Of a DNA stretch of 49,350 bases, positions 5,314 through 20,527 are shown piece by piece. Positions within the stretch are counted from its first letter, which is position 1. Every line of letters starts with the position of its first letter. Below the pieces are notes generated by a model that saw only the letters and a list, made by a program, of their open reading frames with translations, was not told where the DNA came from and searched no databases. Source of the stretch: Jannaschia faecimaris (GTDB taxonomy: Bacteria > Pseudomonadota > Alphaproteobacteria > Rhodobacterales > Rhodobacteraceae); assembly GCF_900107415.1 (NCBI RefSeq), contig NZ_FNPX01000022.1:1-49350 (forward strand), in the 5' to 3' direction. The position numbers were made by a program, and so were the translations under genes.

Positions 5314-5325
5314 CAGGAGATAAGT

Positions 5326-5355
5326 ATGGACGCCGCGCCGACGTCTGATCCGTGA
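5326..5355 (+). other. Ten-codon ORF with a good ribosome site; probable stub of a lost third operon gene
   Basis: AGGAGA at 5315-5320 is spaced 5 nt from ATG (5326), which opens only nine sense codons (MDAAPTSDP) before TGA. The position, 12 bp after the permease stop, and the good ribosome site suggest the beginning of a downstream operon gene whose remainder has been deleted or replaced by the more AT-rich segment that follows. It could equally be a leader peptide or chance. Bases 5356-5452 contain nothing else recognisable. Confidence 0.25.
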
Positions 5356-5452
5356 TGCACAGGTATCGGCGTTTCACTCAGAAACGGCGCTAGGCCAGCT
5401 CGGGATCGCCGATCATCTGTTTGTCCTTCGCCAAACATCAACTCGATCCTGA

Positions 5453-6279
5453 TCAGCTGGGTGTGCTGGTTTGAATTTGGTTCAGAATGGCTGCCACAAT
5501 CGCCTCGGGCCGATCTTCTTGGACCAGATGACCCGCGCACTGAATATGAGTGCAGGAAGTGTTCGAGATCAGCGCGGCCAATGCGTCACCCTTTGCGGCA
5601 GGAATCCAATTGTCTTCCTGGCCCCACAGCACACGAACCGGGCAATCCAAGGGACGATACAAAGGTTCGACTTCATCCGTGTACATTTGGTCCATCTGAG
5701 CGATTTGCCGATAGAATGCGGGCTGCCCCGTGGTGCCGAGCCAAGGCGCGCTGTAAATCTCAATCGTCTCCGGGATCATTGTGTTGTGAGCGGCAGTCTG
5801 GAGATACGCGGCCAAAAGGGCGCGGTGCATATAATCCGGCATGCCTGCGAATGCAGCCTCGTGTTGGCGGACATGTTGCACGAATGGCGACCCCACGGGG
5901 CGAGGGCCACAGCATCAAAGATGGTTAAAGATGCAAACCGTAACCTCTCCAGAAAGTAGGCGCGTAGTGCAGTTGCGCCGCCAAAGTCGTGCGCCACGAC
6001 ATCTGGCCGATCCAAGCGCCACTCTTTGAACAAAGCGGCGAGCAAACGGTTTTGGACGCCAAGCGATACGTCTTGCTCAACTCTCTTCTCGGACTCTCCA
6101 TAACCCAAAAGGTCGTAGAAATAGATGGACCGGTACTCTGTGAGGTGAGGCAAAACCCTGCGCCAGACCTGGGAGGGAAACGGCGTACCGTGAATGAGAA
6201 CAAGCGGTGGACCAGCCCCAAGCTGACCCCACTTGATAGCGTGTCCTTCGAAGTCGAACATGTTTGGCAGGTCAAGCAT
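5453..6279 (-). pseudogene. Alpha/beta hydrolase of the dehalogenase/epoxide-hydrolase type, interrupted by one frameshift
   Basis: Two minus-strand frames together make one complete hydrolase of about 275 residues. The first (from 6279, MLDLPNMFDFEG) carries the oxyanion motif HGTPFPSQVW and the nucleophile elbow AHDFGG; the second (to 5453) carries VLWGQEDNWIP with the acid and AGHLVQEDRPE with the catalytic histidine. The join lies at the C4 run 5891-5894, where one missing base converts APWG-SPFVQ into an early stop. The nucleophile is Asp, as in haloalkane dehalogenases, fluoroacetate dehalogenases and epoxide hydrolases. The start at 6279 is preferred over the TTG at 6291. It is divergent from an ArsR-type regulator. 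It may be a true frameshift or a sequencing error. Confidence 0.75.
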
Positions 6280-6327
6280 ATTGAGAATCAAATTGTCATT
6301 TAGCTATTTACCGATGTGATTGAAGGC

Positions 6328-6648
6328 ATGGAGAGACCAATACAAATATAGGCGTTGGCCAGTGAGGTTCGCATGCAAGTTCTCCGGCTTCTGGCCGAGC
6401 CGGAAAGGCACTTTGGTCATCAATGGTCTGCTGACGCCGTTGAATTTGGGGTGTGTATGACAATGATCACGGAAGAGCTTGGCGTCGCGCAACCAACCGC
6501 AAGCAAGCACTTGGATATTCTTAAGCAGGCTGGCTTCATCACCGTTCGAAGGCATCAGAAGCGGTCTTATTGCAAACGCGATGAACAAGCGATCACCAAC
6601 TATCTCAACTGGCTTCAACAAGAGCTTTCGCTTCAAAGCGAAAGTTGA
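6328..6648 (+). pseudogene. ArsR-family winged-helix regulator with an in-frame amber codon near its start
   Basis: From ATG 6328 the frame reads MERPIQI, then TAG at 6349-6351, then ALASEVRMQVLRLL, the usual beginning of ArsR-type regulators. The HTH follows (MITEELGVAQPTASKHLDILKQAGF), then the wing (ITVRRHQKRSYCKR). The family-like sequence continues across the stop, so the intact ancestor probably began at 6328. A TTG at 6355 immediately after the stop could still initiate, without a visible ribosome site, leaving a 97-residue protein with an intact DNA-binding region. No metal-binding cysteine motif such as CVCDL is present. It is divergent from the broken hydrolase, so the pair was probably a regulator and its target. 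Confidence 0.65.
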
Positions 6649-6760
6649 GCTGAAACTAAGAACACATATTGTACCGCCCGCAGCATCTGGAACGGTGGGC
6701 ACCAAGGTGTCGTTCGCTGCGGCACCCACCAACTTCCGCTGGGGCCGTTCACTGCAACCT

Positions 6761-6862
6761 AGGATCAGGCAGCACAGCCATACCCGACCACATCAGGCCC
6801 TCAACACGCGGCCACCGGTACTAAGACCTCTCATCAGAAATGGTACTGAAGTTACGGGCTAG
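6761..6862 (+). mobile_element. IS3-family transposase remnant (C-terminal tail)
   Basis: The frame ending at 6862 reads HTRPHQALNTRPPVLRPL and then a tail ending TEVTG, which is the C-terminal end of an rve/IS3-type transposase (the conserved RPH..L..RPP stretch). Nothing of the DDE core is visible upstream; 6649-6760 is unassigned. It has the same orientation as the IS3 N-terminal fragment at bases 1-122, so the efflux-hydrolase segment is bracketed by transposase debris. Whether both ends come from one element cannot be told by eye. Confidence 0.6.
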
Positions 6863-6982
6863 ACGCTGTCTCATGGCGGCACGGGGTACCGCCGCACCGG
6901 GAGGGAAGGCCGTCGCAGGACGCACGGCCCGCGAGGTTACGTCTAGGTGGCGTTTCGTGCGGCGATTTGAAATCATTCAAAG

Positions 6983-7558
6983 ATGGCAAACCTGATTTTC
7001 ATTACCCATCCGGAAGTCTCGGTGGTTCCGGGTACCGATGTCCGACAATGGCGGCTGACTCACGCAGGGATGGCGCGCATGGCCGTGTTTGCCAATCACC
7101 AGGTTGTCGCAGGAGTGACCTCGGTTTGGTCGAGCCGCGAGGTAAAGGCAATTGACGCCGCCGCGATTCTTACCGCTCGCCTTGTAGTGGGACATCAACA
7201 CGAAATCGATCTTGGCGAGAACGACCGAAGCGCGACGGGATATCTCCCTCCCGATGAATTCGAGAGGACGGCCGATCGCTTTTTTTCCGAGCCAGAGTGC
7301 AGCGTTCGTGGATGGGAGCGTGCAGTTGACGCGCAGCGGCGCGTTCGGGACGCAGTCGACCGGATTCTTGCCGACCATAAGGGCGGAGATGTCGCCATCG
7401 TGTCGCATGGTGCCGTGGGCAGTCTATTACTCTGTTGTTACTTGGAAAACCCGATCAGCAGGGCGGCTGATCAGCCGTTTCAGGGGCACTACTGGCAGGC
7501 ATCCCTGCCTGCCAAGAGGGTGCTGCATGGCTGGAGGTCGATTGCGCCGACCGGATAG
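6983..7558 (+). CDS. Histidine phosphatase (PGAM/SixA-like) family protein with an atypical catalytic motif
   Basis: 191-residue protein of the phosphoglycerate-mutase-like fold. The start LIFITHPEV places His9 where the RHG catalytic histidine normally sits, but Arg is replaced by Thr and Gly by Pro. The other family marks are present: WSSREVKAID (SSxxxRAxxTA position), an acidic residue near Glu79 and VAIVSHGAVG with the second catalytic His142. Because the arginine that normally binds phosphate next to the nucleophile is missing, activity on small phosphoesters is uncertain. It is encoded 5' of and in the same direction as the DeoR operon but is separated from it by that operon's own promoter. 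Confidence 0.75.
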   Translation: MANLIFITHPEVSVVPGTDVRQWRLTHAGMARMAVFANHQVVAGVTSVWSSREVKAIDAAAILTARLVVGHQHEIDLGENDRSATGYLPPDEFERTADRFFSEPECSVRGWERAVDAQRRVRDAVDRILADHKGGDVAIVSHGAVGSLLLCCYLENPISRAADQPFQGHYWQASLPAKRVLHGWRSIAPTG

Positions 7559-7630
7559 TGCAGAAATCACGTTGTCGGAAATTGTCCCTACCGTTTATGG
7601 CACCTAGTTGCCCCCGCTCACTCCGAGAAG

Positions 7631-7646
7631 CGATCATATAAGATCA
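7631..7646. promoter_or_regulatory. Upstream operator-like copy O1 for the DeoR-type repressor
   Basis: CGATCATATAAGATCA matches the perfect palindrome at 7665-7680 at 14 of 16 positions. The centres of the two sites are 34 bp apart, and O1 lies just upstream of the predicted -35. Paired, similarly oriented sites on both sides of a -35 are typical of repressors that bind cooperatively. Confidence 0.6.
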
Positions 7647-7649
7647 CAA

Positions 7650-7678
7650 TTGACCGGTTGTTGGTGATCATATATGAT
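7650..7678 (+). promoter_or_regulatory. Sigma-70-type promoter of the DeoR/Ugp-like operon
   Basis: TTGACC (7650-7655), a 17-bp spacer and TATGAT (7673-7678) form a near-consensus vegetative promoter, the best one seen in the window. The -10 is inside the 16-bp palindrome O2. Transcription would start near 7685, about 50 nt before the repressor ATG. Confidence 0.65.
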
Positions 7679-7680
7679 CA
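7665..7680. promoter_or_regulatory. Operator O2: perfect 16-bp palindrome over the -10
   Basis: TGATCATATATGATCA is a perfect palindrome that contains the whole predicted -10 hexamer. A repressor bound here would block RNA polymerase directly. The gene immediately downstream is a DeoR/GlpR-type repressor, so autoregulation of the operon is the simplest reading. Confidence 0.65.
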
Positions 7681-7735
7681 TTTTTGAGCGCAATGGGGAG
7701 ATTGTCGTTTTGACCGGGAAATTTCGATCAAATTC

Positions 7736-8530
7736 ATGCGGATACGATCAGTGAACGACAGCATTGATCTTGCTGGTGTCCGCCGGCGCAAGATCGCGAA
7801 GATCGTCGAGGACCGTGGCTCAATAGGTGTTCGGGACCTCTCCGAGGAATTCGGAGTGTCCGACGTCACCATTCGGCGCGATCTGAGGGAGCTGGGCAAG
7901 CTGGGTGTCGTCACGCGGACGCATGGCGGCGTAATGATCAATTCAAGCATCCTGTCCGACTTGTCCAACGAGGAGCGAAAGTCGGTCGGCTCCGAGGAAA
8001 AAAGCCGGATCGGACAGGTGGCCATCGAAATGCTGTCTGACGAGGAGGTCGTGTTCCTCGACGCAGGAACAACGGCGCTCGCCGTCGCATCCTACGCCCA
8101 TCGCAGGCCGCAATGTCACTACGTCACCACCTGCCTCGGCGTGGCCAGTCAGCTGATGGGGCAGGATATCAAGAGCTTCTATATCATCGGCGGGGCTTAT
8201 CGCGGAACAAATGACTCGTTCACCGGAACGCTGGCCGTCTCAGCGCTTCGATCGCTGTCTTTCGATGTCTCGTTCCTGTGCTGTTCAGCAATTGACATCG
8301 AGCGGCGATCGATCTCGATCAGCGACGAAATCTACAGCCAAGTGCAAAAAGAGGCGATCGCCTCGTCGCGCCGAAATATCGTCGTCGCCCACCATGATAA
8401 GGTCTCCACCAAAGGCTTCGTGCACACGGCGGGTTTCGATCAATTGGACCGTATCATCACCGATTCCGGTCTTGATGAGGAAAGCCGTGCCCAAATGCAG
8501 CGCGCAAATATCGAGGTAATTTTGGCATGA
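7736..8530 (+). CDS. DeoR/GlpR-family repressor of the phosphodiester operon
   Basis: 264 residues. The N-terminal winged HTH (about residues 18-68) contains SIGVRDLSEEFGVSDVTIRR and THGGVM, the family signature. The C-terminal sugar-phosphate-sensing DeoRC domain has VVFLDAGTTALAVA, FYIIGGAYR and ISISDEIYSQVQKEAIA followed by VVAHHDK. DeoR-family effectors are usually phosphorylated sugars or polyols, which fits the rest of the operon. The usual D-x-S-K end of the sensor domain is altered to HHDKVS. No clear ribosome site precedes the ATG. Its stop overlaps the ATPase gene start (ATGA), so repressor and transporter are one transcription unit. Confidence 0.88.
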   Translation: MRIRSVNDSIDLAGVRRRKIAKIVEDRGSIGVRDLSEEFGVSDVTIRRDLRELGKLGVVTRTHGGVMINSSILSDLSNEERKSVGSEEKSRIGQVAIEMLSDEEVVFLDAGTTALAVASYAHRRPQCHYVTTCLGVASQLMGQDIKSFYIIGGAYRGTNDSFTGTLAVSALRSLSFDVSFLCCSAIDIERRSISISDEIYSQVQKEAIASSRRNIVVAHHDKVSTKGFVHTAGFDQLDRIITDSGLDEESRAQMQRANIEVILA

Positions 8531-9591
8531 GCGAGAGCGGCGTATCAATCGAGGTCCAAGGCCTGCGCAAAAGCTGGGGCGCGGTCGAAGTCCTCAAGGC
8601 TGTCGATTTCGGCATCGAGGCTGGGGGTTTCCTGACGCTACTCGGTCCTTCGGGGTGTGGTAAAAGTACGCTTCTGCGGCTGATCTGCGGGTTGGATGAA
8701 GTGAGCGGCGGACAGATCCTGATCGATGGAAAGGACGTCACCGGAAAGGCCGCGGCCGAGCGAAACCTGGGGATGGTTTTTCAGAACTATGCGCTGTTTC
8801 CGCATATGACGATTGAAGAGAATATTTCCTACGGGCTGAAAATCCGCAAGGTTCCGGCGGCTGAGAAGAAGAAGCAACTCGACCGGGTGGCCGAGCTGAT
8901 GGCCCTTGGCTCCCTGCTGGACCGCAGGCCGGGACAGTTGTCCGGGGGGCAACAGCAGCGGGTCGCCCTTGCGCGGGTTCTGGTTTCGGGTCGTCCGCTG
9001 GTGCTGATGGATGAACCGCTGTCCAACCTCGACGCCAAGCTGCGGGTCGAGATCCGCAGCGAGATCAGGTCACTCAACAAGAAGCTCGGGATTACGATCG
9101 TCTATGTGACCCACGACCAGAGCGAAGCCTTGTCGATGTCCGATCGCGTGGTCCTGATGAGCGCCGGCGAGGTGGCTCAGGTTGGTACACCCAAAGAGCT
9201 ATACGAACATCCCGCCAACACGTTTTCAGCGACCTTTATCGGAACGCCACCGACGAACATCCTGGATTCGTCCGAGGTCGAATTTCCCGCGGATCTTGGG
9301 GTCGCGGGCGGGCACAAGGTGACAGACTGCCAATTCGGGATCCGCCCCGAGAACCTGGGCTTCCCGGCTGAGGATCATGAATTTCGGGTCAAGGCGCGGG
9401 TTCAGAGCGTTGAATACGAGGGCAAGGTGTTTCTGATCCACCTGGTGACCGCCGCCGGTACGACGATGGTGCTGTCCTATTCGGGCGCTTCGGTGCCGCA
9501 GGAAGGCGAGGAAATCACGGTCGGTTGGGGGCGGGAGCAAACGCATCTGTTCTTGAAAAAGGACGGCAACGCGATCGCGATCGAACGATGA
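8527..9591 (+). CDS. ABC transporter ATPase, UgpC/MalK type
   Basis: 354-residue nucleotide-binding subunit of a carbohydrate/phosphodiester importer. Walker A GPSGCGKST is at residues 40-48, the Q-loop at Gln86, the signature LSGGQQQ at 138-144, Walker B VLMDEP at 159-164 and the H-loop at His196. The C-terminal roughly 110 residues form the OB-fold (TOBE) regulatory domain typical of MalK/UgpC ATPases. It overlaps the repressor gene by 4 bp, which is unusual because the ATPase precedes the binding protein and permeases here. It would energise the permeases encoded at 11025-12709. Confidence 0.9.
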   Translation: MSESGVSIEVQGLRKSWGAVEVLKAVDFGIEAGGFLTLLGPSGCGKSTLLRLICGLDEVSGGQILIDGKDVTGKAAAERNLGMVFQNYALFPHMTIEENISYGLKIRKVPAAEKKKQLDRVAELMALGSLLDRRPGQLSGGQQQRVALARVLVSGRPLVLMDEPLSNLDAKLRVEIRSEIRSLNKKLGITIVYVTHDQSEALSMSDRVVLMSAGEVAQVGTPKELYEHPANTFSATFIGTPPTNILDSSEVEFPADLGVAGGHKVTDCQFGIRPENLGFPAEDHEFRVKARVQSVEYEGKVFLIHLVTAAGTTMVLSYSGASVPQEGEEITVGWGREQTHLFLKKDGNAIAIER

Positions 9592-9640
9592 CCCAACGGG
9601 ATCTGGAGGATCCCAAAAAGTTAACACGGAGGAGGAATAC

Positions 9641-10927
9641 ATGACTTACAAAATTAATTCGGCGATGCCCTTGGTGGCAGGGGCCCTTTTGGGTGCCAGC
9701 GCAACCGGTCTGCACGCTGCTGACCTGGAGTTCTATTTTCCGGTCGGCGTTAACGCACCTGCGGTAGCGACGATCGAGGAGCTAACCAGCGAATGGGCAG
9801 CACAGAACCCCCAGCACAACGTGGAGGCGGTGTACGCGGGCAACTACGAAGAGACGACGACCAAGGCGCTGACCGCGGCTCAGGCCGGGGATCCGCCACA
9901 AGTGGCGGTTCTTCTGTCCATCGATCTGTTCACCCTGGTCGAAGAGGACGTCATTCTTCCGATCTCGGACATTGCTACCTCGGCCGAAGATCAGGCCTGG
10001 ATGGATGGTTTCTATCCGGCTTTCATGTCGGATGCGAAATTCGAGGGCAAAACCTACAGCATTCCGTTCCAGCGCTCGACGCCGGTGCTGTATTATAACA
10101 AGGATGCCTTCCGCGCTGCCGGCCTTGATCCGGAAACGCCCCCCAAGACCTGGGACGAGATGATCGAGATGGGCAAACAGCTGGTTGTAAAGGATGACAA
10201 CGGCAATGTGACGCAATGGGGCACGCGAATTCCCACGCTTGGTCTTGGCGGTGCGTGGTTGTTCGGCGGTCTGGTCGTGTCCAAAGGCGACGTGCTGACG
10301 ACCGAAACGGGAACCGAAGCCAGGATGAATACGCCGGCCACGGTCGCGTCTCTCGAATTTCTTCAGCAGCTGTCCGACGAAGGTGTGATGCAGCCGGGCG
10401 GCATATCCTGGGGCGACACACCGAAAGCGTTCCTCGAGGGCCAGACGGCTTCGATGTGGACTTCGACCGGTAACCTTGCCTTTGTAAAGGATAACGCGGA
10501 ATTCGACTGGGGCGTCGGCTTCCTGCCCGGCGGCGACGGTCCCGGCGCTCCGCTTGGCGGCGGCAACTTCTATATCTTCAGCGAAACCACGGACGAAGAA
10601 CGCGCCGCAGCCTTGGACTTCATCAAGTTCATGACCGCGCCGGAAAACGCCGCACGCTGGAGCATCGCAACCGGCTATGTCGCGCCGCGTCCGGATGCTT
10701 GGGAAACGCCCGAGATGAAGGCCTACGCCGAAGAGCTCCCCCAGGCGCTCGTGGCGCTTGATCAGTTGCCATATGCCCACCGCGAATTCGCTACCTTCCA
10801 GCGGGCAAAAGTCACGCAATACCTGGTTGATGCGATCGAAAGTGTGGTGACAGGCAACAACACTGCCGAGGCAGCGCTCGCCGAAGCGCAGGAGCAGGCT
10901 GACGAAGTGCTGAGTGAATACAAGTAG
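9641..10927 (+). CDS. Extracellular solute-binding protein, UgpB-like (family 1)
   Basis: 428 residues with a signal peptide (cleavage expected after GLHA near residue 26). Residues 146-155 (STPVLYYNKD) followed by AFRAAGLDPETPPKTW closely resemble E. coli UgpB, which binds glycerol-3-phosphate and glycerophosphodiesters. The segment that carries the UgpB ligand-contacting tryptophans differs here (QWGTRIPTLGLGGAWLF), so the ligand is probably related but not identical. A strong ribosome site (GGAGGAGG) precedes the ATG, and a large stem-loop follows the gene, consistent with production in excess over the permeases. A 6-bp hairpin sits at 9598-9614 just upstream. Confidence 0.88.
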   Translation: MTYKINSAMPLVAGALLGASATGLHAADLEFYFPVGVNAPAVATIEELTSEWAAQNPQHNVEAVYAGNYEETTTKALTAAQAGDPPQVAVLLSIDLFTLVEEDVILPISDIATSAEDQAWMDGFYPAFMSDAKFEGKTYSIPFQRSTPVLYYNKDAFRAAGLDPETPPKTWDEMIEMGKQLVVKDDNGNVTQWGTRIPTLGLGGAWLFGGLVVSKGDVLTTETGTEARMNTPATVASLEFLQQLSDEGVMQPGGISWGDTPKAFLEGQTASMWTSTGNLAFVKDNAEFDWGVGFLPGGDGPGAPLGGGNFYIFSETTDEERAAALDFIKFMTAPENAARWSIATGYVAPRPDAWETPEMKAYAEELPQALVALDQLPYAHREFATFQRAKVTQYLVDAIESVVTGNNTAEAALAEAQEQADEVLSEYK

Positions 10928-10960
10928 GGTCGTACCCGTCTTGTGAAGACCTCTGCTGAG

Positions 10961-10992
10961 CTCCGCGCGCCAACCCATTCCGGCGCGCGGAG
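10961..10992 (+). other. Intercistronic stem-loop after the binding-protein gene
   Basis: CTCCGCGCGCC pairs perfectly with GGCGCGCGGAG, an 11-bp stem with a 10-nt loop, and is not followed by a U-run. Lying between the binding-protein and permease genes it most likely stabilises the 3' end of the binding-protein message or partly attenuates read-through, as known for other binding-protein operons. Confidence 0.7.
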
Positions 10993-11024
10993 AGAACACC
11001 ACCCGTGAAGAGGAACGGAAAGCC

Positions 11025-11900
11025 ATGAATAAGCGACTTCCCCTTGGCCTTGGGTTTGTTCTACTGGTCTTGCCGTGTTCGCTGCTCGTTGCGTTCACGC
11101 ATTATCCCGCAGTCCGCGCATTCATAAACTCGCTCTGGAACAATGCCAGCTCGCGCCGACCGTCCCGTTTCGTAGGGTTCGAAAATTACGAGGCGATGAT
11201 CGCAGACGACAAGCTGATGCAGGTCCTTACAAACAGCGGTCTTTACGCGCTTGGCACCATTCCGCTAGCCATCTTCCTGTCGATCAGCATGGCCTTGTTG
11301 GTGAACTCCAAGTTCCCGGCCACGGGCCTGATGCGCCTGTCCTTCTTCTTGCCGACGATGCTGCCGCTGGTGGCGGTCGCGAATATCTGGCTGTTCTTTT
11401 ATGCGCCGGGCATCGGTCTCGCATCCCAGATGATGAACGCCATCGGCCTTCCGACGGTCAACTTCCTCGGCAGCACCGAAACATCGCTCGTGTCGATGAT
11501 GGTGGTTGCGGTCTGGAAAGAGGCTGGGCTGTTCATGATCTTCTACCTTGCTGCCCTTCAGGCGGTTCCCGAGAACCTGAAGGATGCGGCGCGCCTTGAA
11601 GGGGCGGGGCCGGTACGAGTGTTCTTTGACGTGATCTTCCCGCTGTTGCGCCCGACGACAATATTCGTTGCGGTTAACGCGCTGATCAACGCGTTCCGTC
11701 TGGTCGACCACATCATCGTCATGACCAGAGGTGGCCCTGATAATTCCAGCGCGCTGCTGCTTTTCTATATCTACGAAGTCACCTTCCGACAGAGAGACTT
11801 TGCCTATGGCGCGACGCTCACTGTTCTGATGGTCGCGATCCTGGGGGTTCTTGCAGCCTTCCAGTTCTGGGTTCTGGACAGAAAGACGCATTACCAATGA
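11025..11900 (+). CDS. ABC transporter permease, UgpA/MalF type
   Basis: 291 residues with about six membrane segments. The binding-protein-dependent transport (BPD) signature loop appears as DAARLEGAGPVRVFFDVIFP, the EAA motif that docks on the ATPase. It is the first permease of the heterodimeric channel and overlaps the second permease gene by 4 bp (ATGA). The ATG at 11025 follows a GAAGAGGAACGGA stretch that can serve as ribosome site. Confidence 0.9.
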   Translation: MNKRLPLGLGFVLLVLPCSLLVAFTHYPAVRAFINSLWNNASSRRPSRFVGFENYEAMIADDKLMQVLTNSGLYALGTIPLAIFLSISMALLVNSKFPATGLMRLSFFLPTMLPLVAVANIWLFFYAPGIGLASQMMNAIGLPTVNFLGSTETSLVSMMVVAVWKEAGLFMIFYLAALQAVPENLKDAARLEGAGPVRVFFDVIFPLLRPTTIFVAVNALINAFRLVDHIIVMTRGGPDNSSALLLFYIYEVTFRQRDFAYGATLTVLMVAILGVLAAFQFWVLDRKTHYQ

Positions 11901-12709
11901 CCAAGGGCTTGAACAGAATATTGATGACCACCCTGGCCTTTGTTCTGGCCGGTCTGTGGGGGCTTCCCTTCCTCTATTCGGTGTGGACCGCGTTCCACGA
12001 GGAGAAATATTCCGCCAATTTCAAATGGAACGCTCCGTTGACGTTGGAGAATTTCGTCGAGGCCTGGAATGCCGCGCCTTTTGCGCTGTATTTCGTGAAC
12101 ACGTTCATCCTGATCACGATCGTGATCGTCGCGAATTTCATTTTGTGCACTTTGGTGGCATATGCCTTCGTGCGATATCGGTTCAGATGGGCGGGTTTTG
12201 CCTTCGCTCTGGTGATGGTGCAGCTTCTGATCTCGCCCGAAATCCTGATCGTCGAGAACTACCTGACGCTGTCAAGCATCGGCCTGACCGACACGATTAT
12301 CGGAATCGCGCTGCCATATCTGAATTCGGCCTTCGGAATCTTCCTATTGCGCCAAACCTTCATGAGTGTGCCCAAATCGCTTGACGAGGCGGCGCAGCTT
12401 GAAGGGGCCGGGGCGTGGCGGGTGTTGTGGAACGTATATGTTCCGCTCGCAAAGCCGGTCTATCTGGCCTACGGGCTGGTCTCGATCAGCTTCCACTGGA
12501 ACAACTTCCTGTGGCCCCTCATCGTCACCAATTCCCCCGAGGTGCGTCCTGTGACCGTCGGTCTGAGCGTTTTCGCCACTGTGGAAAGCGGGGTCGAATG
12601 GTCCCTCGTTAACGCGGCGACGCTGATGACGACTGCGCCGCTGATTATCGCCTTCCTTATCTTCCAACGCCAGTTCGTCGCGAACTTCATGCGGGCCGGG
12701 ATCAAGTAG
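11897..12709 (+). CDS. ABC transporter permease, UgpE/MalG type
   Basis: 270-residue second permease. Six hydrophobic segments are visible, and the EAA loop reads EAAQLEGAGAWRVLWNVYVP. It starts within the stop of the previous permease gene, so translation is coupled. With the ATPase at 8527 and the binding protein at 9641 it completes an importer of the CUT1 class. The C-terminal end (FVANFMRAGIK) is the usual MalG-type ending in GxxK. Confidence 0.9.
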   Translation: MTKGLNRILMTTLAFVLAGLWGLPFLYSVWTAFHEEKYSANFKWNAPLTLENFVEAWNAAPFALYFVNTFILITIVIVANFILCTLVAYAFVRYRFRWAGFAFALVMVQLLISPEILIVENYLTLSSIGLTDTIIGIALPYLNSAFGIFLLRQTFMSVPKSLDEAAQLEGAGAWRVLWNVYVPLAKPVYLAYGLVSISFHWNNFLWPLIVTNSPEVRPVTVGLSVFATVESGVEWSLVNAATLMTTAPLIIAFLIFQRQFVANFMRAGIK

Positions 12710-12754
12710 ACCAAAGTATTTGCGTCAGCCTCGCTGTCCGCAGTGGAGAAACCC

Positions 12755-13558
12755 ATGCGATTTGCCCATCTGAGCGACCTACATATCGGCCAGACCCCGG
12801 TTCCCGGGGTTTTGGACGACGCGGTCACAATCGTCGAGCAGATCGTGCGGGATGTCAGGCGGATCAGCGAAGTCCTGGATTTCATCGTGGTCTCGGGCGA
12901 CATGACGGAAGATGCTGAATTGGCTTCGTTCCGACAGTTTGAGGATCTGTTCGCGACGATTGGGTTGCCCGTCTACACAGTGCCCGGCAATCATGACGGT
13001 CCTGCCGGATACTACCGGTGCCTTGATCGATCCGAAACGCTGTCGAATTGGGACATCACTAGTCAGGTCGTCGAATTGCAGGATCTGCGGCTGATCGGGA
13101 TCGACACCTGTATCGAAGGTGAAACGACTGGCCGGGTTGACTCCAAGGCGATGACCCTGATCGAACGCCAGGTCGCGCGTCGCGACGCCCCGCCGCTGAT
13201 CATCGTGATGCACCATCCGCCGATCATGCCGGGCCTGCGGGATTTTGATGCCGTGGCGCGCCTCGATGGTGCGGCCGAGTTGCATGAAATCCTGCGGCGG
13301 GCGGGCACACCGCAGACAATCCTTTCGGGCCATGTGCATCGCCCCTATCAGGCCCGGAGCAATAATGCGGCCTGCTTCGTCGCAGGAAGTCCGACTAGCG
13401 CCTTTACCTCGGATCTGCCTTTCGGTGCGTCGCCGATCCGACTGAAAGGTCTTCAGGATTTCTACTTCGTTCACGAGGTTGACCAAGGCGGTCGCCACGT
13501 CGTCACGCCGCAACACTATTCTTATGGGAACGCGACGCAGGTCGGGGCCTCGTCATGA
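12755..13558 (+). CDS. Metallophosphoesterase, class III / GpdQ-like phosphodiesterase
   Basis: 267-residue calcineurin-like enzyme with a full set of metal-binding motifs: D-x-H (Asp8, His10), GDMTE (48-52), GNHD (78-81), HHPP (153-156) and GHVH (192-195). This is the arrangement of the cyclic-nucleotide/glycerophosphodiester phosphodiesterases CpdA and GpdQ, which cleave phosphodiesters to a monoester and an alcohol. There is no signal peptide, so it acts on imported substrate in the cytoplasm. The start at 12755 is preferred to the GTG at 12743 because GGAG lies 8 nt upstream and MRFAHLSDLH is the normal N-terminus. Its stop overlaps the next gene (ATGA). Confidence 0.88.
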   Translation: MRFAHLSDLHIGQTPVPGVLDDAVTIVEQIVRDVRRISEVLDFIVVSGDMTEDAELASFRQFEDLFATIGLPVYTVPGNHDGPAGYYRCLDRSETLSNWDITSQVVELQDLRLIGIDTCIEGETTGRVDSKAMTLIERQVARRDAPPLIIVMHHPPIMPGLRDFDAVARLDGAAELHEILRRAGTPQTILSGHVHRPYQARSNNAACFVAGSPTSAFTSDLPFGASPIRLKGLQDFYFVHEVDQGGRHVVTPQHYSYGNATQVGASS

Positions 13559-14385
13559 CGCTGACCACCCGGCAGACCGACGACCTGATCGAGGCCGTGC
13601 GCGACACCGGACGAAAAGAGATCATGCCGCATTTCCGGAACCTTGCCCCCTTGAGCGTCGGGACCAAGGCAGATGCGAAGGATCTGGTCACCGAAGCTGA
13701 CCGGGCGGCGGAGATTGCGATCGCGACCGCGGTGGCGAATATCCTGCCGCAGGCGTCGATCGTTGGGGAAGAAGCTGTGGCCGAGCATCCGGCGACCCTC
13801 GATGCGATTGGAACCTCCGGCACCTGCGTTGTCATTGACCCGATCGATGGCACCGGGAATTTTGTCGAGGGCCTTGCCGTGTTCGGAACGATCCTGGCGG
13901 TGGTCCATAATGGCGAGACGATATTTGGGCTGCTCTATGATCCGGTGCTTGATGACTGGATTTGCGCGACCCGTGGTGAAGGTGCGTTTTACGCCAATGA
14001 TACCAAGGCCCCGACCTCCGTTGCACCACGGCCCGCGCGACCGCTCGGAACCGCCAAGGGTTTTTTGTCGCTCGACAATTATCCGGCAACGGACCGGGCA
14101 GATATCCTGCGCAAGTTCGACCCTGTTTATCAGATTCGGGATATCCGGTGCTCCTGCCATGAATACCGGCTTGTTGCGTCGGGGCAGGCTGATTTCCTCA
14201 GGTCATGTTCATTGAATCCTTGGGATCACGCCGCAGGGCTCCTCATCCTACAGGAGGCCGGCGGATGGGCCAGAGTCGGGGGGGACCGGCGCTACGTGCC
14301 AACCCTGCGCGAAGGCCATGTTATCGCGGCAAGTTGTGAACAGGTTGCCAATGGGGTCAGGGAGCTGTCCGTTGGGTTGCCGTGA
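13555..14385 (+). CDS. Inositol-monophosphatase-family phosphatase
   Basis: 276 residues of the IMPase/FIG superfamily. Metal-site motifs are GEE (71-73), DPIDGT (95-100) and WDHAAG near residue 220. Members hydrolyse small phosphomonoesters such as inositol, sugar or histidinol phosphates, and one relative (AccG) dephosphorylates arabinose-2-phosphate in agrocinopine catabolism. Translationally coupled to the phosphodiesterase, it is well placed to remove phosphate from one product of diester cleavage. The actual substrate cannot be assigned from sequence. Confidence 0.88.
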   Translation: MTLTTRQTDDLIEAVRDTGRKEIMPHFRNLAPLSVGTKADAKDLVTEADRAAEIAIATAVANILPQASIVGEEAVAEHPATLDAIGTSGTCVVIDPIDGTGNFVEGLAVFGTILAVVHNGETIFGLLYDPVLDDWICATRGEGAFYANDTKAPTSVAPRPARPLGTAKGFLSLDNYPATDRADILRKFDPVYQIRDIRCSCHEYRLVASGQADFLRSCSLNPWDHAAGLLILQEAGGWARVGGDRRYVPTLREGHVIAASCEQVANGVRELSVGLP

Positions 14386-14492
14386 CGAAACACGGAAGGG
14401 TGCAAGTGCCTTCTCAGGTTAAGGTGAATTTTGCGCGACCTGGGCGAGCGAGGCGCTGTGTCAGGATTTCGCCGCCGCACATTGAGGACTGA

Positions 14493-16151
14493 ATGTTAGA
14501 AAACTCGCTCTACGTCCTGCTCAACCTGGCAAGTGCCGCGGCGCTGCTGATCTGGTCCGTCCGACTTGTGCGAACCGGATTCGAACGCGCGTTCGGGGGC
14601 CAGTTGCGCCATTGGCTGCGCTTGTCCACGTCCGGCCGCCTCAGCGCTGCGGGGTGCGGTGCCGGGGCGGCCATCCTGCTGCAAAGCTCGACTGCGGTGG
14701 CGGTTCTCATGGCGGGGTTCGTGTCGGCAGGCACGATCGGTGCCGTTGCAGGCCTTGCCATCCTGCTGGGGGCCGATCTTGGATCGGCTATCGTCACGCA
14801 GCTTTTGAATTCTTCGCTGTCGTTGGTTGCGCCGGTTCTGCTGTTGGGCGGTGTGGTGATTTTCCTGCGAAGCAGCAGTCGGCGACTGCGCCAGATCGGG
14901 CGCATCCTGATCGGGCTGGCACTTTTGTTCATGTCGCTGGACCTGATCCGCGCAGCAAGCCATCCACTGATCGAAAGCGCGCAGAGCCAGACAATCATCC
15001 TCTATCTCGCCGATGAAACGGCTGCGGCCTTCCTGGTGGCCGCGATCTTCGCATGGCTGGTGCATTCCAGCGTTGCTGCCGTCCTTCTGTTCGTGACGAT
15101 GGCGGGGCAGGGGATCATGCCGGTCGAGGCGACTTTCGCGATGGTGCTTGGTGCCAACCTGGGCGGCTCCTTCATCGCCTTGGTGCTGACGCTTAAATCG
15201 AATGTCATGGTTCGGCGGGCGGTCACGGCCAATCTTGTATTGCGCGGGGGCGGTGCAGCAGGCCTTCTATACGTCCTTTCGGTCTTTCCGAACCTGTCAT
15301 CCTTTCTGGGGTCGGAGCCGGCCCAGCAATCCTTGAACCTGCATCTTGCGTTCAACGGGCTGTTGCTGATCCTGTGTCTCCCGCTAATCGGACCAATTTT
15401 TCGCGTTGCCTCTTTCATTATTCGGGACAGTGAAACCGATACCGAGATCGGTGCGAAAAGCAGCGCCCTTGATCCTGCCGCTCTCTCGCAACCCAAGCGC
15501 GCGTTTTCCTGCGCGGTCAGGGAATTGGTGCATATCGGGGGGCGCGTGGAAGCCATGCACCGGAATGTTCTGCCGCTGTTTGAACACTTCGATGAAATGG
15601 CGGCGCGGACAATCCGGAGCGAAAACGAAGATGTTGCGCAGCGTTCGCTCAAGCTACGGATCTATCTGGCAAGCATTCGTGGCAAGAATGCCGAAGACGA
15701 GATCGGGACACGGGCCATCGAACTTGCCGGTATCGCGGCCAACCTGGAATCCGCAGCTGACATGATTTCCCGTAAGATGGTCATGCACGCCGAAACGATG
15801 AACCTCGAAAGCCTCAAGTTCTCGAAGGACGGCTGGGGGGATTTGACGATGTTCCATGACACCGTATACCGCAACGTTCAGCTGTCGATCTCGGTCCTGA
15901 TGGCCGAAGATCCATCGCTGGCACGCTCCTTGGTCGAGCAGAAAGAGACCGTGCGCGAAATCGCGCAACGGCTTGAAAAACAGCACCTCTACCGACTGAA
16001 GCAGGGCCTTTCCGAGTCGATCGAGACAAGCAGCATTCACCTGGACCTGCTGCGGGCACTCAAGTCCGTGAATACGAACTTCGCCATGATCGCGTATCCC
16101 CTCCTGCGCGACAGCGGGGAGTTGCTTGGTAGCAGGTTGGCGGTGAACTGA
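14493..16151 (+). CDS. Na/Pi cotransporter (NptA/YjbB type) with a PhoU-like C-terminal domain
   Basis: 552 residues. The membrane half (about 1-330) contains two inverted Na_Pi_cotrans repeats, with QSSTA at 64-68 and a weaker HSSVAAV near 192. The cytoplasmic C-terminal part (from about 350) is helical and PhoU-like. The E. coli relative YjbB has been reported to export phosphate when internal phosphate is high. In this operon, where a phosphodiesterase and a phosphatase liberate phosphate in the cytoplasm, export is the sensible direction. The 107-bp gap from the phosphatase gene shows no obvious terminator, so co-transcription is likely. Confidence 0.85.
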   Translation: MLENSLYVLLNLASAAALLIWSVRLVRTGFERAFGGQLRHWLRLSTSGRLSAAGCGAGAAILLQSSTAVAVLMAGFVSAGTIGAVAGLAILLGADLGSAIVTQLLNSSLSLVAPVLLLGGVVIFLRSSSRRLRQIGRILIGLALLFMSLDLIRAASHPLIESAQSQTIILYLADETAAAFLVAAIFAWLVHSSVAAVLLFVTMAGQGIMPVEATFAMVLGANLGGSFIALVLTLKSNVMVRRAVTANLVLRGGGAAGLLYVLSVFPNLSSFLGSEPAQQSLNLHLAFNGLLLILCLPLIGPIFRVASFIIRDSETDTEIGAKSSALDPAALSQPKRAFSCAVRELVHIGGRVEAMHRNVLPLFEHFDEMAARTIRSENEDVAQRSLKLRIYLASIRGKNAEDEIGTRAIELAGIAANLESAADMISRKMVMHAETMNLESLKFSKDGWGDLTMFHDTVYRNVQLSISVLMAEDPSLARSLVEQKETVREIAQRLEKQHLYRLKQGLSESIETSSIHLDLLRALKSVNTNFAMIAYPLLRDSGELLGSRLAVN

Positions 16152-16214
16152 GCGGTGCATTGAAATGGATGGAACCGACGACGGAAGACGACCGAAACAA
16201 AAGGGCCGCAGGAC

Positions 16215-17276
16215 ATGAACGACACCGCACTCGCGGATCAACCTCACCGCCGCTTCAACCCGCTGAAAGGTGAATGGGTTCTGGTATCGCCGCACCGCAG
16301 TAACAGGCCATGGCAGGGTCAGGCAGAAAGCCCGACATCCAAGGACAAGCCGGCGCATGATCCAAACTGCTACCTTTGCGCCGGCAACACGCGGGTGACG
16401 GGCGCGACGAACCCGGATTACGCGGGGCCATACGTGTTTCCCAACGATTATCCGGCTCTGCTTGTCGACACATCTTATGTCGATACGGGCAATGATGCCC
16501 TGTTCCGGGCCCAGACCGTGCGGGGCACTTCGCGCGTCATTTGTTTTTCGGAGCGCCATGATCTGACCCTGCCCGAACTGTCGGTGCCTGAAATTCGCCG
16601 CGTCGTCGATGTCTGGACTGCGCAGTTTGCCGAGCTTGGGAAAACATACGACTGGGTCGCCATCTTCGAGAACAAGGGGGCCGCGATGGGCTGTTCGAAC
16701 CCCCATCCTCACGGGCAGGTATGGGCGTCGGATTTCCTGCCAAACGAAGTTCAAAAAGAGGATGCGTGCCAAGCCGCGTTCCTGGCCGAGACCGGCGAAA
16801 ATCTACTCGTCGCCTATTCCCTACGTGAGGCGGACCTGAAAGAGCGGATCGTGGTCGAGAACAGTCACTGGATTGCCGTTGTTCCCTACTGGGCGACATG
16901 GCCTTTCGAGACGCTGCTGATGCCCAAACGGCATGTTCCGCAACTTACGGACCTGACGGGCGACGAACGCGATACCCTGGCCGACATCCTGAAGCGGCTC
17001 TGCACCCGCTACGACAACCTGTTTACGACCGAGTTTCCGTATTCGATGGGCTGGCACGGCGCGCCATCCAAAGGGGGGGAGAGGGCACATTGGCAGTTGC
17101 ATGCGCATTTCTATCCGCCCCTACTCCGATCGGCGACAATCCGGAAGTTCATGGTTGGCTATGAGATGCTGGCCGAAGCGCAGCGCGATCTTACGGCAGA
17201 AAAAGCAGCTTCCATCCTGCGCGATCAATTGGAAAATCACTGGGCCTGTTCGCGGAATGGGCAGAGCGACCATTGA
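16215..17276 (+). CDS. galT: Galactose-1-phosphate uridylyltransferase
   Basis: 353-residue GalT, very close in sequence to the E. coli enzyme throughout. The active-site motif SNPHPHGQ holds the nucleophile His166, and the metal-site residues Cys52, Cys55 (CYLC), His115 and His164 are all present at the E. coli numbering. It exchanges galactose-1-phosphate with UDP-glucose to give UDP-galactose and glucose-1-phosphate. Unusually it is the last gene of a Ugp-like operon, and no galK, galE or galM is in the window. This suggests that galactose-1-phosphate may arrive by phosphodiester cleavage and not by kinase action. Confidence 0.93.
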
Positions 17277-17626
17277 CGCACTGAGGGCTGACTTGTTGGC
17301 GTTTGATTTGGGTTCCTGTCCATGGACAGTCGCTGTTTCTGCTGCCCGATCAATGAGCCGGGTGCCGGGCGTTCAGAGCTTTCCAAACTCAAGGTCCGCG
17401 GCCAGAAGGTCAGATCGTGATCGCTGGATGGCGTTCCGCGCATAGCAAACAGCTAAGACCCGTTCGCCAAGGGGTCTCCGGGAAACAGGGGGATTTCGCT
17501 GAAGGTATCATTTCTTGTTTGACAGCCTCGGCCTGGCCGCTTGCTTAACGTTAGGGAAGGCGTCAAGCTATCAGGTGATTGCGGGCACCTCGTTGGTCAA
17601 ACCGCAACACCCAAGGGAGGAATAAT
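17277..17626. promoter_or_regulatory. 350-bp gap with a candidate promoter for the TRAP operon (17519-17547)
   Basis: The gap between galT and the TRAP binding protein contains no coding signal I can support and no clear terminator hairpin. TTGACA at 17519-17524, a 17-bp spacer and TGCTTA at 17542-17547 form a possible promoter about 80 bp before the dctP start. The -35 is perfect and the -10 weak. GGGAGGAAT just before 17627 is the ribosome site. Confidence 0.4.
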
Positions 17627-18607
17627 ATGAAAACCAGAAATATGTTTAAGCCCGTTATCTCGACCGCTGCCGTATTGGCGCTTTTGCCCGCCATGGCCGC
17701 GGCGGAAACCAAGCTGAAGTGGGCACATGTCTACGAGTCCAGCGAGCCGTACCATACCTGTGCGGTTGCCGCGAACGACCTGTTGATGGACGCGACGGAA
17801 GGTCGGTTCGGGATTGAGGTCTTCCCGGCCTCATCGCTCGGCAAGGAAGTTGATATCAACGAAGGCCTGGGCTTCGGCACGGTCGACATCATCTATACCG
17901 GGCAGCTGTTTGCCGGTCGATCGTACGGTCCCATCGCGATTGGCGGTGCACCCTTCATGTTCCGCGACTGGGACCATTGGGACAAGTTCCGCAATTCGGA
18001 TTTGTTCAACGAGATGTCTCAGGGCTATACCGATGCGACGGGCAATCACATCACTGCGATGACGTATTATGGTGCGCGCCATGTCACGTCCAACAAGCCG
18101 ATCCTGACGCCTGCCGATATGGACGGGCTGAAAATCCGTGTGCCGAACGCGCCGCTTTACATGATGTTCCCCGAGGCAACGGGGGCCAATCCCGCGCCCA
18201 TCGCCTTCGCCGAGGTCTATCTGGCGCTGCAGCAAGGCACCGTGGACGCGCAGGAAAACCCCCTGCCCACGATCCAGGCCAAAAAGTTCTACGAGGTTCA
18301 GACCAACATCAACCTGACCGGCCATATCACCGATGCCTTGCTTACCATCGTTGGCGGCCCGGCGTGGGACGCGATGGACGCCGCCGACCAGGCGGCGCTG
18401 ACCAAGGTGACCCAGGACACCGCTGTTTGCGCCACCGATGCGATCATCAAGGCCGAGGGTGAACTGGCCGAATGGTTCCGCGGAGAAGGCGTGCAGGTCA
18501 ACGAGGTGGACCGCGCGCCGTTCATCGAGGCGGTAAAGGCCATGCACAACGGTGAGATGGCGACTTGGGATCAGGCGACGTACGATCGCCTGCAAGCCAT
18601 CGAGTGA
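17627..18607 (+). CDS. TRAP transporter substrate-binding protein (DctP family)
   Basis: 326 residues with a signal peptide ending near AAAE (residues 24-27). Family marks include KLKWAHVYESSEPYH, SLGKEVDINEGLGFGTVDI and LKIRVPNAPLY, where the conserved arginine that binds the carboxylate of ligands lies in KIRVP. The start at 17627 follows GGGAGGAAT; an upstream in-frame ATG at 17579 lacks one. It feeds the DctQ/DctM membrane pair downstream. TRAP ligands are normally carboxylates or sulfonates; the associated 2-hydroxyacid dehydrogenase suggests a 2-hydroxy- or 2-oxoacid. Confidence 0.88.
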   Translation: MKTRNMFKPVISTAAVLALLPAMAAAETKLKWAHVYESSEPYHTCAVAANDLLMDATEGRFGIEVFPASSLGKEVDINEGLGFGTVDIIYTGQLFAGRSYGPIAIGGAPFMFRDWDHWDKFRNSDLFNEMSQGYTDATGNHITAMTYYGARHVTSNKPILTPADMDGLKIRVPNAPLYMMFPEATGANPAPIAFAEVYLALQQGTVDAQENPLPTIQAKKFYEVQTNINLTGHITDALLTIVGGPAWDAMDAADQAALTKVTQDTAVCATDAIIKAEGELAEWFRGEGVQVNEVDRAPFIEAVKAMHNGEMATWDQATYDRLQAIE

Positions 18608-18615
18608 ACCTGTCC

Positions 18616-18641
18616 GCAGGCGGGTTGCGATACCCGCCTGC
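18616..18641 (+). other. Intercistronic stem-loop after dctP
   Basis: GCAGGCGGGT and ACCCGCCTGC form a perfect 10-bp stem with a 6-nt loop in the gap between binding-protein and small-permease genes, without a U-run. It is the same arrangement as after the UgpB-like gene and probably keeps binding-protein message levels above those of the membrane subunits. Confidence 0.65.
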
Positions 18642-18666
18642 CCCCCAATGATCCAAAGGATCCGCC

Positions 18667-19236
18667 ATGAGCAGACCAGATTCGTCTGAACAGGACGTGA
18701 CGGCACCGATCATTCTTGAAGAAGAAAAGATTGACCTGTCAGATCAGCGCTGGAGCGACGGCGTGGTTTTGGTCCTTTTTTGGGTCCTGGCTTTCGTCGT
18801 CTTTCTTCAGTTCTTCACGCGATACGTTCTCAACGACTCGATCGCGTGGACGGAAGAAATTGCGCGCTTCTTGTTGATCGGCGTCACCTTTATCGGCTCG
18901 ATCATGGCGACCCGTAAGCAAAGCCACATCGCGGTCGAGTTTTTTTACCGTTGGATCCCTCGAGCGGGGCGACGGATTGCGCAAACGACGATTGACCTGC
19001 TGACCACTGGGTTCTTCATCATGCTGGCTGTGTTCAGCGGGCAAATTGCCGGTCGCACCAGGCAGATGATGGTCTCTCTCGATATACCGAAATCGACGAT
19101 CTACTGGATCGTCACGGCGGCTTTCGTGTGCATGGCACTTTATTCGGCGTGGAACACCTGGTGCCATTTGCGCAGCGGCACCAGCAAATTGATTGACCCC
19201 GAACTGCACGCGGACCAGATCCGCGCGATCGACTAG
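18667..19236 (+). CDS. TRAP transporter small permease (DctQ family)
   Basis: 189 residues with four predicted membrane segments (about 35-55, 70-90, 110-130 and 150-170 from the hydrophobic runs). The family motif ITWTEEIARFLLIG occurs as IAWTEEIARFLLIGVTF. It supports the large DctM subunit. An extended hydrophilic N-terminus of about 30 residues precedes TM1. ATG 18667 follows a GGATCCGCC stretch, a mediocre ribosome site. Confidence 0.85.
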   Translation: MSRPDSSEQDVTAPIILEEEKIDLSDQRWSDGVVLVLFWVLAFVVFLQFFTRYVLNDSIAWTEEIARFLLIGVTFIGSIMATRKQSHIAVEFFYRWIPRAGRRIAQTTIDLLTTGFFIMLAVFSGQIAGRTRQMMVSLDIPKSTIYWIVTAAFVCMALYSAWNTWCHLRSGTSKLIDPELHADQIRAID

Positions 19237-19246
19237 GAGCCCTTAG

Positions 19247-20527
19247 GTGGACATTATTTGGCTTTTCGTAATGCTGGCCGCATTGTTGATCTGCGGCATG
19301 CCCGTTGCGGTCGCCCTGGCGGGGTCTTCTGCGATTTTCATCATTTTCAATGGCTCGCCCCCGCCCATGGTCGTGGCGCATCGGATGATCAACGGCGTTG
19401 ACAGCTTTCCGTTGCTGGCGGTGCCGTTTTTCATCCTTGCCGGCAATCTGATGAACACAGCCGGTATCACTGAACGCATCTTCAACTTTGCCCTGGCGAT
19501 GGTCGGCTGGATGAGAGGCGGACTTGGCCATGTGAATGTGGGGGCCTCGGTCATCTTCGCGGGCATGTCTGGCGCTGCGGTGGCGGATGCCGGCGGCCTT
19601 GGCGCAATCGAGATCAAGGCGATGCGAGACGCAAAGTACGACGCCAAATTCGCGGTCGGGATCACCGCTGCATCGTCGACCATCGGTCCGATCATCCCGC
19701 CCTCCCTGCCGATGGTGATCTACGGTGTCGTCGCGGGTGCCAGTATCGGACAGCTCTTTGTCGCCGGGTTCATTCCCGGTTTGATGATGGCGGCCTCGCT
19801 GATGCTGATGATTGCGATCATGGCCCGGCGGAAGGGCTTCGGACGCGATCAGACGTTTTATTGGTCCGTCCTGTGGTCGACGTTTCAGAGGGCGTTCTTG
19901 TCGCTTCTGACCCCGGTCATCATCGTCGGGGGCATTCTGTCGGGTGCCTTCACCCCGACCGAGGCGGCTGTGGCGGCCTGTGCCTGGGCGTTGTTCCTGG
20001 GGCTGGTTGTTTATCGCACGCTGACGTTGCCCCGGTTTTTGCGCGTCAGCTTTGACACGATCGAAACGACGGCCGTGGTTCTGCTGGTTGTCGGATCGGC
20101 CGCGATCTTTGCCTGGATCCTGACATCTAATCGCGTGCCCGAACAATTCGCTGCCGGATTACTTGCCATTTCCGACCGGCCTTGGGTCATCCTGCTGCTG
20201 ATGAATCTAATCTTGCTGGCGGTCGGATGCTTCATGGAGACGGTGGCCGCGATCACCATCATGGTGCCTGTGCTGTTGCCGATTGCCGTGACCCTGGGAA
20301 TCGACCCGGTACATTTTGGCGTGATCATGGTGCTGAACCTGATGCTGGGGCTTTTGACGCCACCGGTGGGCATGGTGCTTTATGTATTGGCGCGGGTTGC
20401 GAAAATCCCTTTCGAGGATTGCGTCGTCGGCACCGCGCCGTTCCTGATCCCGCTGGTGATCGTGTTGTTGCTGGTCACCTTCATTCCCGGCATCACGATG
20501 TGGCTGCCCACCCTGATTTACCGCTGA
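19247..20527 (+). CDS. TRAP transporter large permease (DctM family)
   Basis: 426 residues, about 12 membrane segments, the sodium-coupled transport subunit. Family marks include PFFILAGNLMN, SGAAVADAGGLGAIEIKAM, ITAASSTIGPIIPPSLP and NLMLGLLTPPVGM. The likely start is GTG at 19247 (VDIIWLF), 10 bp after the dctQ stop with AGGAG just before it. Together with DctP and DctQ it makes a complete tripartite importer. Confidence 0.9.
   Translation: MDIIWLFVMLAALLICGMPVAVALAGSSAIFIIFNGSPPPMVVAHRMINGVDSFPLLAVPFFILAGNLMNTAGITERIFNFALAMVGWMRGGLGHVNVGASVIFAGMSGAAVADAGGLGAIEIKAMRDAKYDAKFAVGITAASSTIGPIIPPSLPMVIYGVVAGASIGQLFVAGFIPGLMMAASLMLMIAIMARRKGFGRDQTFYWSVLWSTFQRAFLSLLTPVIIVGGILSGAFTPTEAAVAACAWALFLGLVVYRTLTLPRFLRVSFDTIETTAVVLLVVGSAAIFAWILTSNRVPEQFAAGLLAISDRPWVILLLMNLILLAVGCFMETVAAITIMVPVLLPIAVTLGIDPVHFGVIMVLNLMLGLLTPPVGMVLYVLARVAKIPFEDCVVGTAPFLIPLVIVLLLVTFIPGITMWLPTLIYR

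Follow-up and report, generated by a model that had tools for sequence, protein, structure and literature searches.

A nine-gene operon of Jannaschia faecimaris proposed to feed galactose-1-phosphate diesters into galactose metabolism without galactokinase

The DNA considered here, a stretch of 49,350 nucleotides that we shall call the window, is contig C44 (NZ_FNPX01000022.1) of Jannaschia faecimaris, a member of the Rhodobacteraceae with a genome of 3.81 Mb (GCF_900107415.1; completeness 99.95%). Between positions 7736 and 17276 of its forward strand it contains nine complete open reading frames (ORFs), identified from the ORF list and by Pfam and NCBIfam family calls, which we propose to see as a DeoR-controlled operon for the use of diesters of a hexose 1-phosphate, most likely galactose, where cleavage by a metallophosphoesterase would deliver galactose-1-phosphate to the uridylyltransferase GalT. 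This reading is drawn from sequence and its context, and we place its probability a little above even, at about 0.55. The genes of the operon are as follows:

7736..8530, + strand: DeoR-family repressor, HTH_DeoR and DeoRC domains (Pfam)
8527..9591, + strand: UgpC-like ATP-binding cassette (ABC) ATPase with TOBE_2 (Pfam; NCBIfam, best model UgpC)
9641..10927, + strand: UgpB-like periplasmic binding protein (Pfam; NCBIfam, best model UgpB; alignment)
11025..11900, + strand: UgpA-like permease (Pfam, NCBIfam)
11897..12709, + strand: UgpE-like permease (Pfam, NCBIfam)
12743..13558, + strand: calcineurin-like metallophosphoesterase (MPE), proposed phosphodiesterase (Pfam, motifs); the start codon as listed is GTG, with an in-frame ATG at 12755
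13555..14385, + strand: inositol-monophosphatase-family phosphatase (IMP), proposed sugar phosphatase (Pfam, NCBIfam, motifs)
14493..16151, + strand: sodium/phosphate (Na/Pi) cotransporter (NPT) with a C-terminal PhoU domain, proposed phosphate exporter (Pfam, NCBIfam)
16215..17276, + strand: GalT, galactose-1-phosphate uridylyltransferase (above both NCBIfam cut-offs; motif)

The initial annotation of this DNA had recognized the same families, on one strand and in this order, and the ORFs, Pfam and NCBIfam bear it out; where it reported ATGA overlaps at four junctions we count three (DeoR/UgpC, UgpA/UgpE and MPE/IMP), the five other junctions showing gaps of 49, 97, 33, 107 and 63 bp.

The pathway that we have in mind would begin with capture of the diester, via its phosphate, by the UgpB-type protein, followed by import through UgpA, UgpE and UgpC. 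In the cytoplasm MPE would cut the diester into galactose-1-phosphate and an alcohol, glycerol for example, and GalT, together with a chromosomal GalE (present in this genome), would convert galactose-1-phosphate into UDP-galactose and glucose-1-phosphate. Because galactose-1-phosphate would enter directly at GalT, no galactokinase would be needed, and this kinase-free entry would explain how a genome comes to possess the second enzyme of the galactose pathway and no recognizable first one. IMP would provide an alternative exit, towards free sugar and phosphate, while NPT would export the phosphate in surplus. In this scheme we infer the ligand, the direction of cleavage, the roles of IMP and of the Na/Pi protein, and the effector of the repressor.

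How far the genes keep company was explored in a sample of 394 genomes of the family, counting UgpB relatives at E 1e-110 or better. Such a relative occurs in 65 genomes. Nine of these, counting that of the window, make up a tight group, where the eight other proteins are 77-90% identical to that of the window, the next relative falling to 56%; G310, listed as belonging to the same genus, gave no match at this threshold. A scan of named genomes, considered through the best 80 of the loci listed (to judge by length and coordinates, L038 there is a contig of G193, and L041 one of G320), adds two metagenome-assembled genomes, L039 (Silicimonas sp.; genome G394) and L040 (genome G395), which brings the carriers of this close importer type, termed clade A below, to 11. 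MPE follows UgpE in all of them. The layout MPE-IMP-NPT-GalT, and thus the full nine-gene set, is found in four: the window's genome (G000), G055, G279 and G320 (Maliponia aquimaris). The others display MPE-IMP-GalT (L039), MPE-GalT, with GalT directly after MPE and neither IMP nor NPT between them (G332), MPE-IMP-NPT (G358, and G193, where NPT is cut by the contig end), MPE-IMP (G152, and L040, where the contig then ends), or MPE with a truncated IMP, after which come other ORFs (G014). Full-length IMP is therefore present in nine carriers, NPT is complete in five and cut in a sixth, and GalT belongs to the operon in six, where it always comes last. The gene set that had been put forward as a unit is thus conserved in its core, importer and MPE being together in 11 of 11, while the exact combination of nine is kept in four; the operon can do without GalT and NPT, and in one carrier does without IMP. 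In G014 (L023) some 1.7 kb of extra sequence (8215-9917) separates UgpB from UgpA, and after 12687 come the truncated IMP and then unrelated ORFs. Two carriers also harbour, elsewhere, a second UgpB-MPE operon of a common type (L179 of G055, 6839-12447; L180 of G320, 6828-12351) with a UgpB 48-49% identical, which suggests that the two systems handle different substrates. A plasmid location of the operon was considered and rejected: four plasmid records of UgpB were retrieved (51-57% identity, E up to 1e-100), with no MPE match at E 1e-30.

It is GalT that gives the operon its galactose flavour. The protein scores well above both NCBIfam cut-offs (568.8 vs 448 and 541.5 vs 102.1), displays at position 164 the sequence HPHGQ, which we take to be the GalT motif, and is the sole GalT found in the source genome, where neither PF10509 nor TIGR00131 detects a galactokinase. 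GalT was found in 10 of 295 genomes of the family; among 385 genomes sampled from the class it was found in three, of which two are carriers. Galactokinase matches to PF10509 occur in 8 of the 295, six adjoining GalT and two weak. When TIGR00131 was run on 14 genomes it matched in the controls G007 and G074 only, so that none was detected in the six genomes with an operon GalT (G000, G055, G279, G320, G332 and G394, the completeness of the last not being stated); nor did any of these six yield a second GalT. The non-operon GalT genes recovered by the family and class searches are eight in all (G007, G074, G032, G185, G195, G253, G271 and G420), and galK adjoins seven of them, G271 being the exception. 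Galactokinase thus accompanies 0/6 operon GalTs vs 7/8 of the others (Fisher exact p 0.005, uncorrected for kinship).

The exception is instructive. At 8712-15740 of L136, in G271, GalT sits between an ABC importer of an unrelated family and a 2H phosphoesterase (PF08975), with a ROK-family regulator alongside, and TIGR00131 finds no galactokinase in this genome either. The 2H phosphoesterase fold includes cyclic phosphodiesterases. The unit resembles that of the window in that GalT, with no galactokinase detected in the genome, keeps company with an importer and a phosphodiesterase-type enzyme, and differs from it in importer family, regulator and phosphoesterase fold. A search of 275 family genomes finds a binding protein of the G271 type in seven, counting G271 itself, and G271 is the only one of the seven among the GalT-positive genomes of the 295-genome search. 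A phosphodiesterase gene adjoins six of the seven loci, of the 2H type in L136 and L198 and of the glycerophosphodiester phosphodiesterase (GDPD) type in L199, L201, L202 and L203, neither being seen beside the importer in L200. IMPase genes lie near the importer in three, after the 2H gene in L198 and beyond a divergent ROK gene in L202 and L203 (in L202 by tblastn only). Since importer, phosphodiesterase and either IMPase or GalT recur together, these loci support a sugar-phosphodiester reading, by what is again an argument from gene context. One of them, L203 (G099, 2268-13759), assembles a Na/Pi gene, IMPase, ROK regulator, ABC importer, GDPD, FGGY kinase and a xylose-isomerase-like gene, the product of which matches PF01261 just below cut-off; it is a candidate pentose-phosphodiester cluster.

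The binding protein can be compared with the UgpB of Phaeobacter sp. MED193 (9lff), which binds glycerol-1-phosphate or glycerol-3-phosphate and the ligand residues of which are named in PMC12718374. Residues were mapped by alignment, the chain numbering being that of the article plus 20, with named residue types that fit at all nine sites. The phosphate ligands, two Tyr and two Ser, are kept (Y69, S146, S275 and Y346), as they are in all 99 relatives compared (taken from 100 loci), position 275 being Ser or Thr. On the glycerol side three residues of five are changed. Trp188 is kept (W193) and Trp191 is replaced by Arg196, so that the double Trp clamp is lost; Gly303 is kept (G307) and Glu88 becomes Ser93 (Ala in most carriers), a residue for which D95 might substitute; Arg393 becomes Thr392, in a weakly aligned column of the C-terminal stretch where, in this alignment, E. 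coli UgpB also lacks Arg. Arg196 and Thr392 are fixed in all 11 clade A proteins, position 196 being mostly Met (59) and position 392 mostly Arg (59) in the 88 other relatives. R145 is common to the 99 relatives and, in the alignment, to the glycerophosphocholine-binding UgpB of Mycobacterium tuberculosis.

As for the enzymes, all the catalytic motifs sought in MPE, IMP and GalT are present. MPE has DxH, GD, GNHD, HH and GHxH at 12, 52, 82, 157 and 196, presumably the metal-ligand motifs of class III cyclic-nucleotide phosphodiesterases and GpdQ-type metallophosphoesterases. Its nearest solved relatives are Rv0805/Icc and the 'phosphohydrolase' 2dxl, which we take to be GpdQ. NPT is presumably, by analogy, a phosphate exporter, since YjbB-type proteins carry out phosphate export.

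A number of observations weigh against the galactose-1-phosphate diester reading, and deserve to be considered together. GalT is absent genome-wide from five of the 11 carriers (G358, G152, G014, G193 and G395, the completeness of the last not being stated), which means either that the imported compound is not bound to give galactose-1-phosphate or that the IMP route suffices. The GalT tree is for the most part poorly resolved and gives no sign of independent origins, its six operon members forming three pairs rather than six independent cases; it was on this account rejected as evidence of repeated acquisition. Each search for galactokinase used one model, so that a divergent kinase could be missed. 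All 14 genomes tested have DgoK, so that free galactose could be used without the Leloir pathway; it probably has its own route via DgoK, and this would suit the exit through IMP. A single phosphate group cannot supply both GalT and IMP, and the two are most simply understood as alternative exits. G332, with GalT but no IMP, fits this view, as do G152 and G358, with IMP but no GalT, while most GalT carriers have both. As for the binding protein, 11 of the 88 other relatives also have Arg at position 196 and 19 have Thr at position 392, and every one of the 88 has Ser or Ala at the Glu88 site, a change that is therefore not special to clade A. MPE and IMP of G193 are just 28-29% identical to those of the window. 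Finally, a search of the literature in full text found no paper naming a galactose-1-phosphodiester. Set against the initial annotation, which had proposed uptake of a phosphodiester containing galactose or a similar unit, the phosphodiester part is strengthened by the importer-MPE pair of all 11 carriers and by a UgpB with its phosphate ligands and without the full glycerol set; the galactose part gains from the lack of detectable galactokinase in six of six genomes with operon GalT, GalT itself being in 6 of 11 carriers.

Other readings of the same genes compete with this one. The main rival, to which we give a minor share of belief, is a broad glycerophosphodiester system, for headgroup diesters (glycerophosphocholine or glycerophosphoinositol, for example), where IMP would take inositol-phosphate or glycerol-phosphate and GalT would be a passenger belonging to polysaccharide or UDP-sugar metabolism. 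The five carriers devoid of GalT suit it, as does Rv0805, the nearest solved relative of MPE. A scan of 92 UgpB loci, of which L039-L041 belong to clade A, speaks on both sides: with MPE nearby in 33 (30 of the 89 outside clade A) and NPT in 12, UgpB-MPE operons without GalT or IMP are common, but IMP and GalT are seen with clade A importers only, being near none of the 89 other loci, some of which are on short contigs. A glycerophosphodiester substrate would also sit ill with the altered glycerol-side residues, with the recurrence in G271 of a GalT without detectable galactokinase by a different importer and phosphodiesterase-type enzyme, and with the fact that Pfam reveals no inositol catabolic gene among the nine.

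Uptake of a nucleotide sugar or of a cyclic sugar phosphate, MPE splitting UDP-galactose or galactose 1,2-cyclic phosphate to give galactose-1-phosphate for GalT, seems to us unlikely. The NCBIfam matches of MPE are indeed cyclic-nucleotide phosphodiesterases, far below their cut-offs (SpdA, 82.6 vs 400; 3',5'-cAMP phosphodiesterase, 63.1 vs 225), and the G271 analogue has a 2H enzyme, but GDPD stands beside the importer in four of the seven G271-type genomes, pointing to open-chain diesters. No nucleotidase or nucleoside gene was found by Pfam among the nine, and this has to be set against the UgpB relative that, according to PMC12718374, binds uridylyl-3'-5'-phosphoguanosine. As for a plain glycerol-3-phosphate Ugp system that picked up unrelated genes, it is very improbable: UgpB, UgpA, UgpE and UgpC are the best full-length models, but all four proteins fall below the curated cut-offs (170.9 vs 411 for the UgpB equivalog NF008211, 118.2 vs 335, 125.1 vs 297 and 369.6 vs 432, respectively), the second clamp Trp, Glu88 and Arg393 are replaced, and G055 and G320 carry their second UgpB-MPE operon elsewhere.

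Returning to the operon as a route for galactose-1-phosphate diesters, its upstream region has the following features:

7632-7646 and 7666-7680, + strand: two operator-like GATCATATA(A/T)GATCA elements (repeat search), the second lying over the -10 region
7650-7678, + strand: sigma-70-like promoter TTGACC-17-TATGAT (site scan), overlapped by these elements

The elements are candidate operators; position 7631, where the initial annotation had made the region begin, is the edge of one of them. Allowing up to two mismatches, the window has five matches, vs a mean of 0.13 in shuffles, four of which come from the two sites in front of DeoR, read on either strand, while the fifth lies at 26589. The GATC half-sites differ among carriers. 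The region shows no excess of promoter-like sites in general (4 vs 3.6 expected); a pattern drawn from these sequences precedes DeoR in nine of the 11 carriers, vs 0.04 expected in mononucleotide shuffles, a figure to be taken as supporting only, the pattern having been fitted post hoc. Of six Pho-box-like matches in the window none lies inside the operon, and control by phosphate starvation was rejected for this reason; together with the DeoR gene that heads the operon, this fits a control of the carbon type.

At the 5' side, a histidine phosphatase gene (6983-7558) was rejected as a member, with no match at E 1e-6 in nine carrier loci and one 24-bit match in L169, distant from the operon. 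At the 3' side, the site scan of the region lists no terminator-like site directly after GalT, and we place the end there because of the layout in relatives, the next called gene after GalT being on the opposite strand in the other five GalT carriers. Past this end by 302 bp, three TRAP-transporter-like genes (binding protein, small and large membrane subunits) were noticed by eye on the same strand (17579-20527), as was, at 5453-6291, an alpha/beta-hydrolase-like protein apparently split across two overlapping frames.

We may then ask what such an operon would mean. Tentatively, and at somewhat less than even odds, we suggest that galactose-1-phosphate diesters are a nutrient class for bacteria of the Rhodobacteraceae type, and that a way into the Leloir pathway that bypasses galactokinase came together on at least two occasions, each time with an unrelated importer (the UgpB type or the G271 type) and an unrelated phosphodiesterase (MPE or 2H). 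If true, there would be a kinase-free route into galactose metabolism and an unrecognized pool of dissolved sugar phosphodiesters used by bacteria, and a GalT that lacks GalK and lies next to an importer and a phosphodiesterase would be a genomic signature for finding others.

A literature search at the level of titles and abstract openings found no description of the nine-gene set, in agreement with the initial annotation, which knew of no described system with exactly these genes. The operon is a variant, newly described here, of known UgpB-phosphodiesterase operons. The DeoR-UgpCBAE-MPE(-NPT) operons of other bacteria have the same type of regulator and importer, many with MPE after UgpE, and NPT, but their UgpB is at most 56% identical in the family sample, and they are the loci that lack IMP and GalT nearby. 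With the Ugp importer proper (UgpBAEC, the Phaeobacter protein included) the system shares the four-part construction, the phosphate Tyr and Ser, Gly303 and Trp188; it differs by its three replaced residues, its scores and its link to MPE, IMP, NPT and GalT. The Leloir gal operon (galT-galK) differs in the galactokinase that neither PF10509 nor TIGR00131 finds in the window's genome. A precedent for making galactose-1-phosphate inside the cell by an enzyme other than galactokinase is the lacto-N-biose pathway of bifidobacteria (PMC5144078), where a phosphorylase does so; a disaccharide is phosphorolysed there, whereas we propose phosphodiester cleavage. The closest described logic is, by analogy, that of the agrocinopine acc operon of Agrobacterium, which according to the accessible part of PMC4526662 combines a DeoR-family repressor sensing the released sugar phosphate, an ABC importer of sugar phosphodiesters, the phosphodiesterase AccF and the putative phosphatase AccG, with no GalT or Na/Pi gene mentioned there. 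The initial annotation had drawn this parallel, and it holds by gene family, as a likeness of logic only, AccA, AccF and AccG having been compared by description: a DeoR regulator, an ABC importer, a phosphodiesterase-type and a phosphatase-type enzyme, gathered in one unit.

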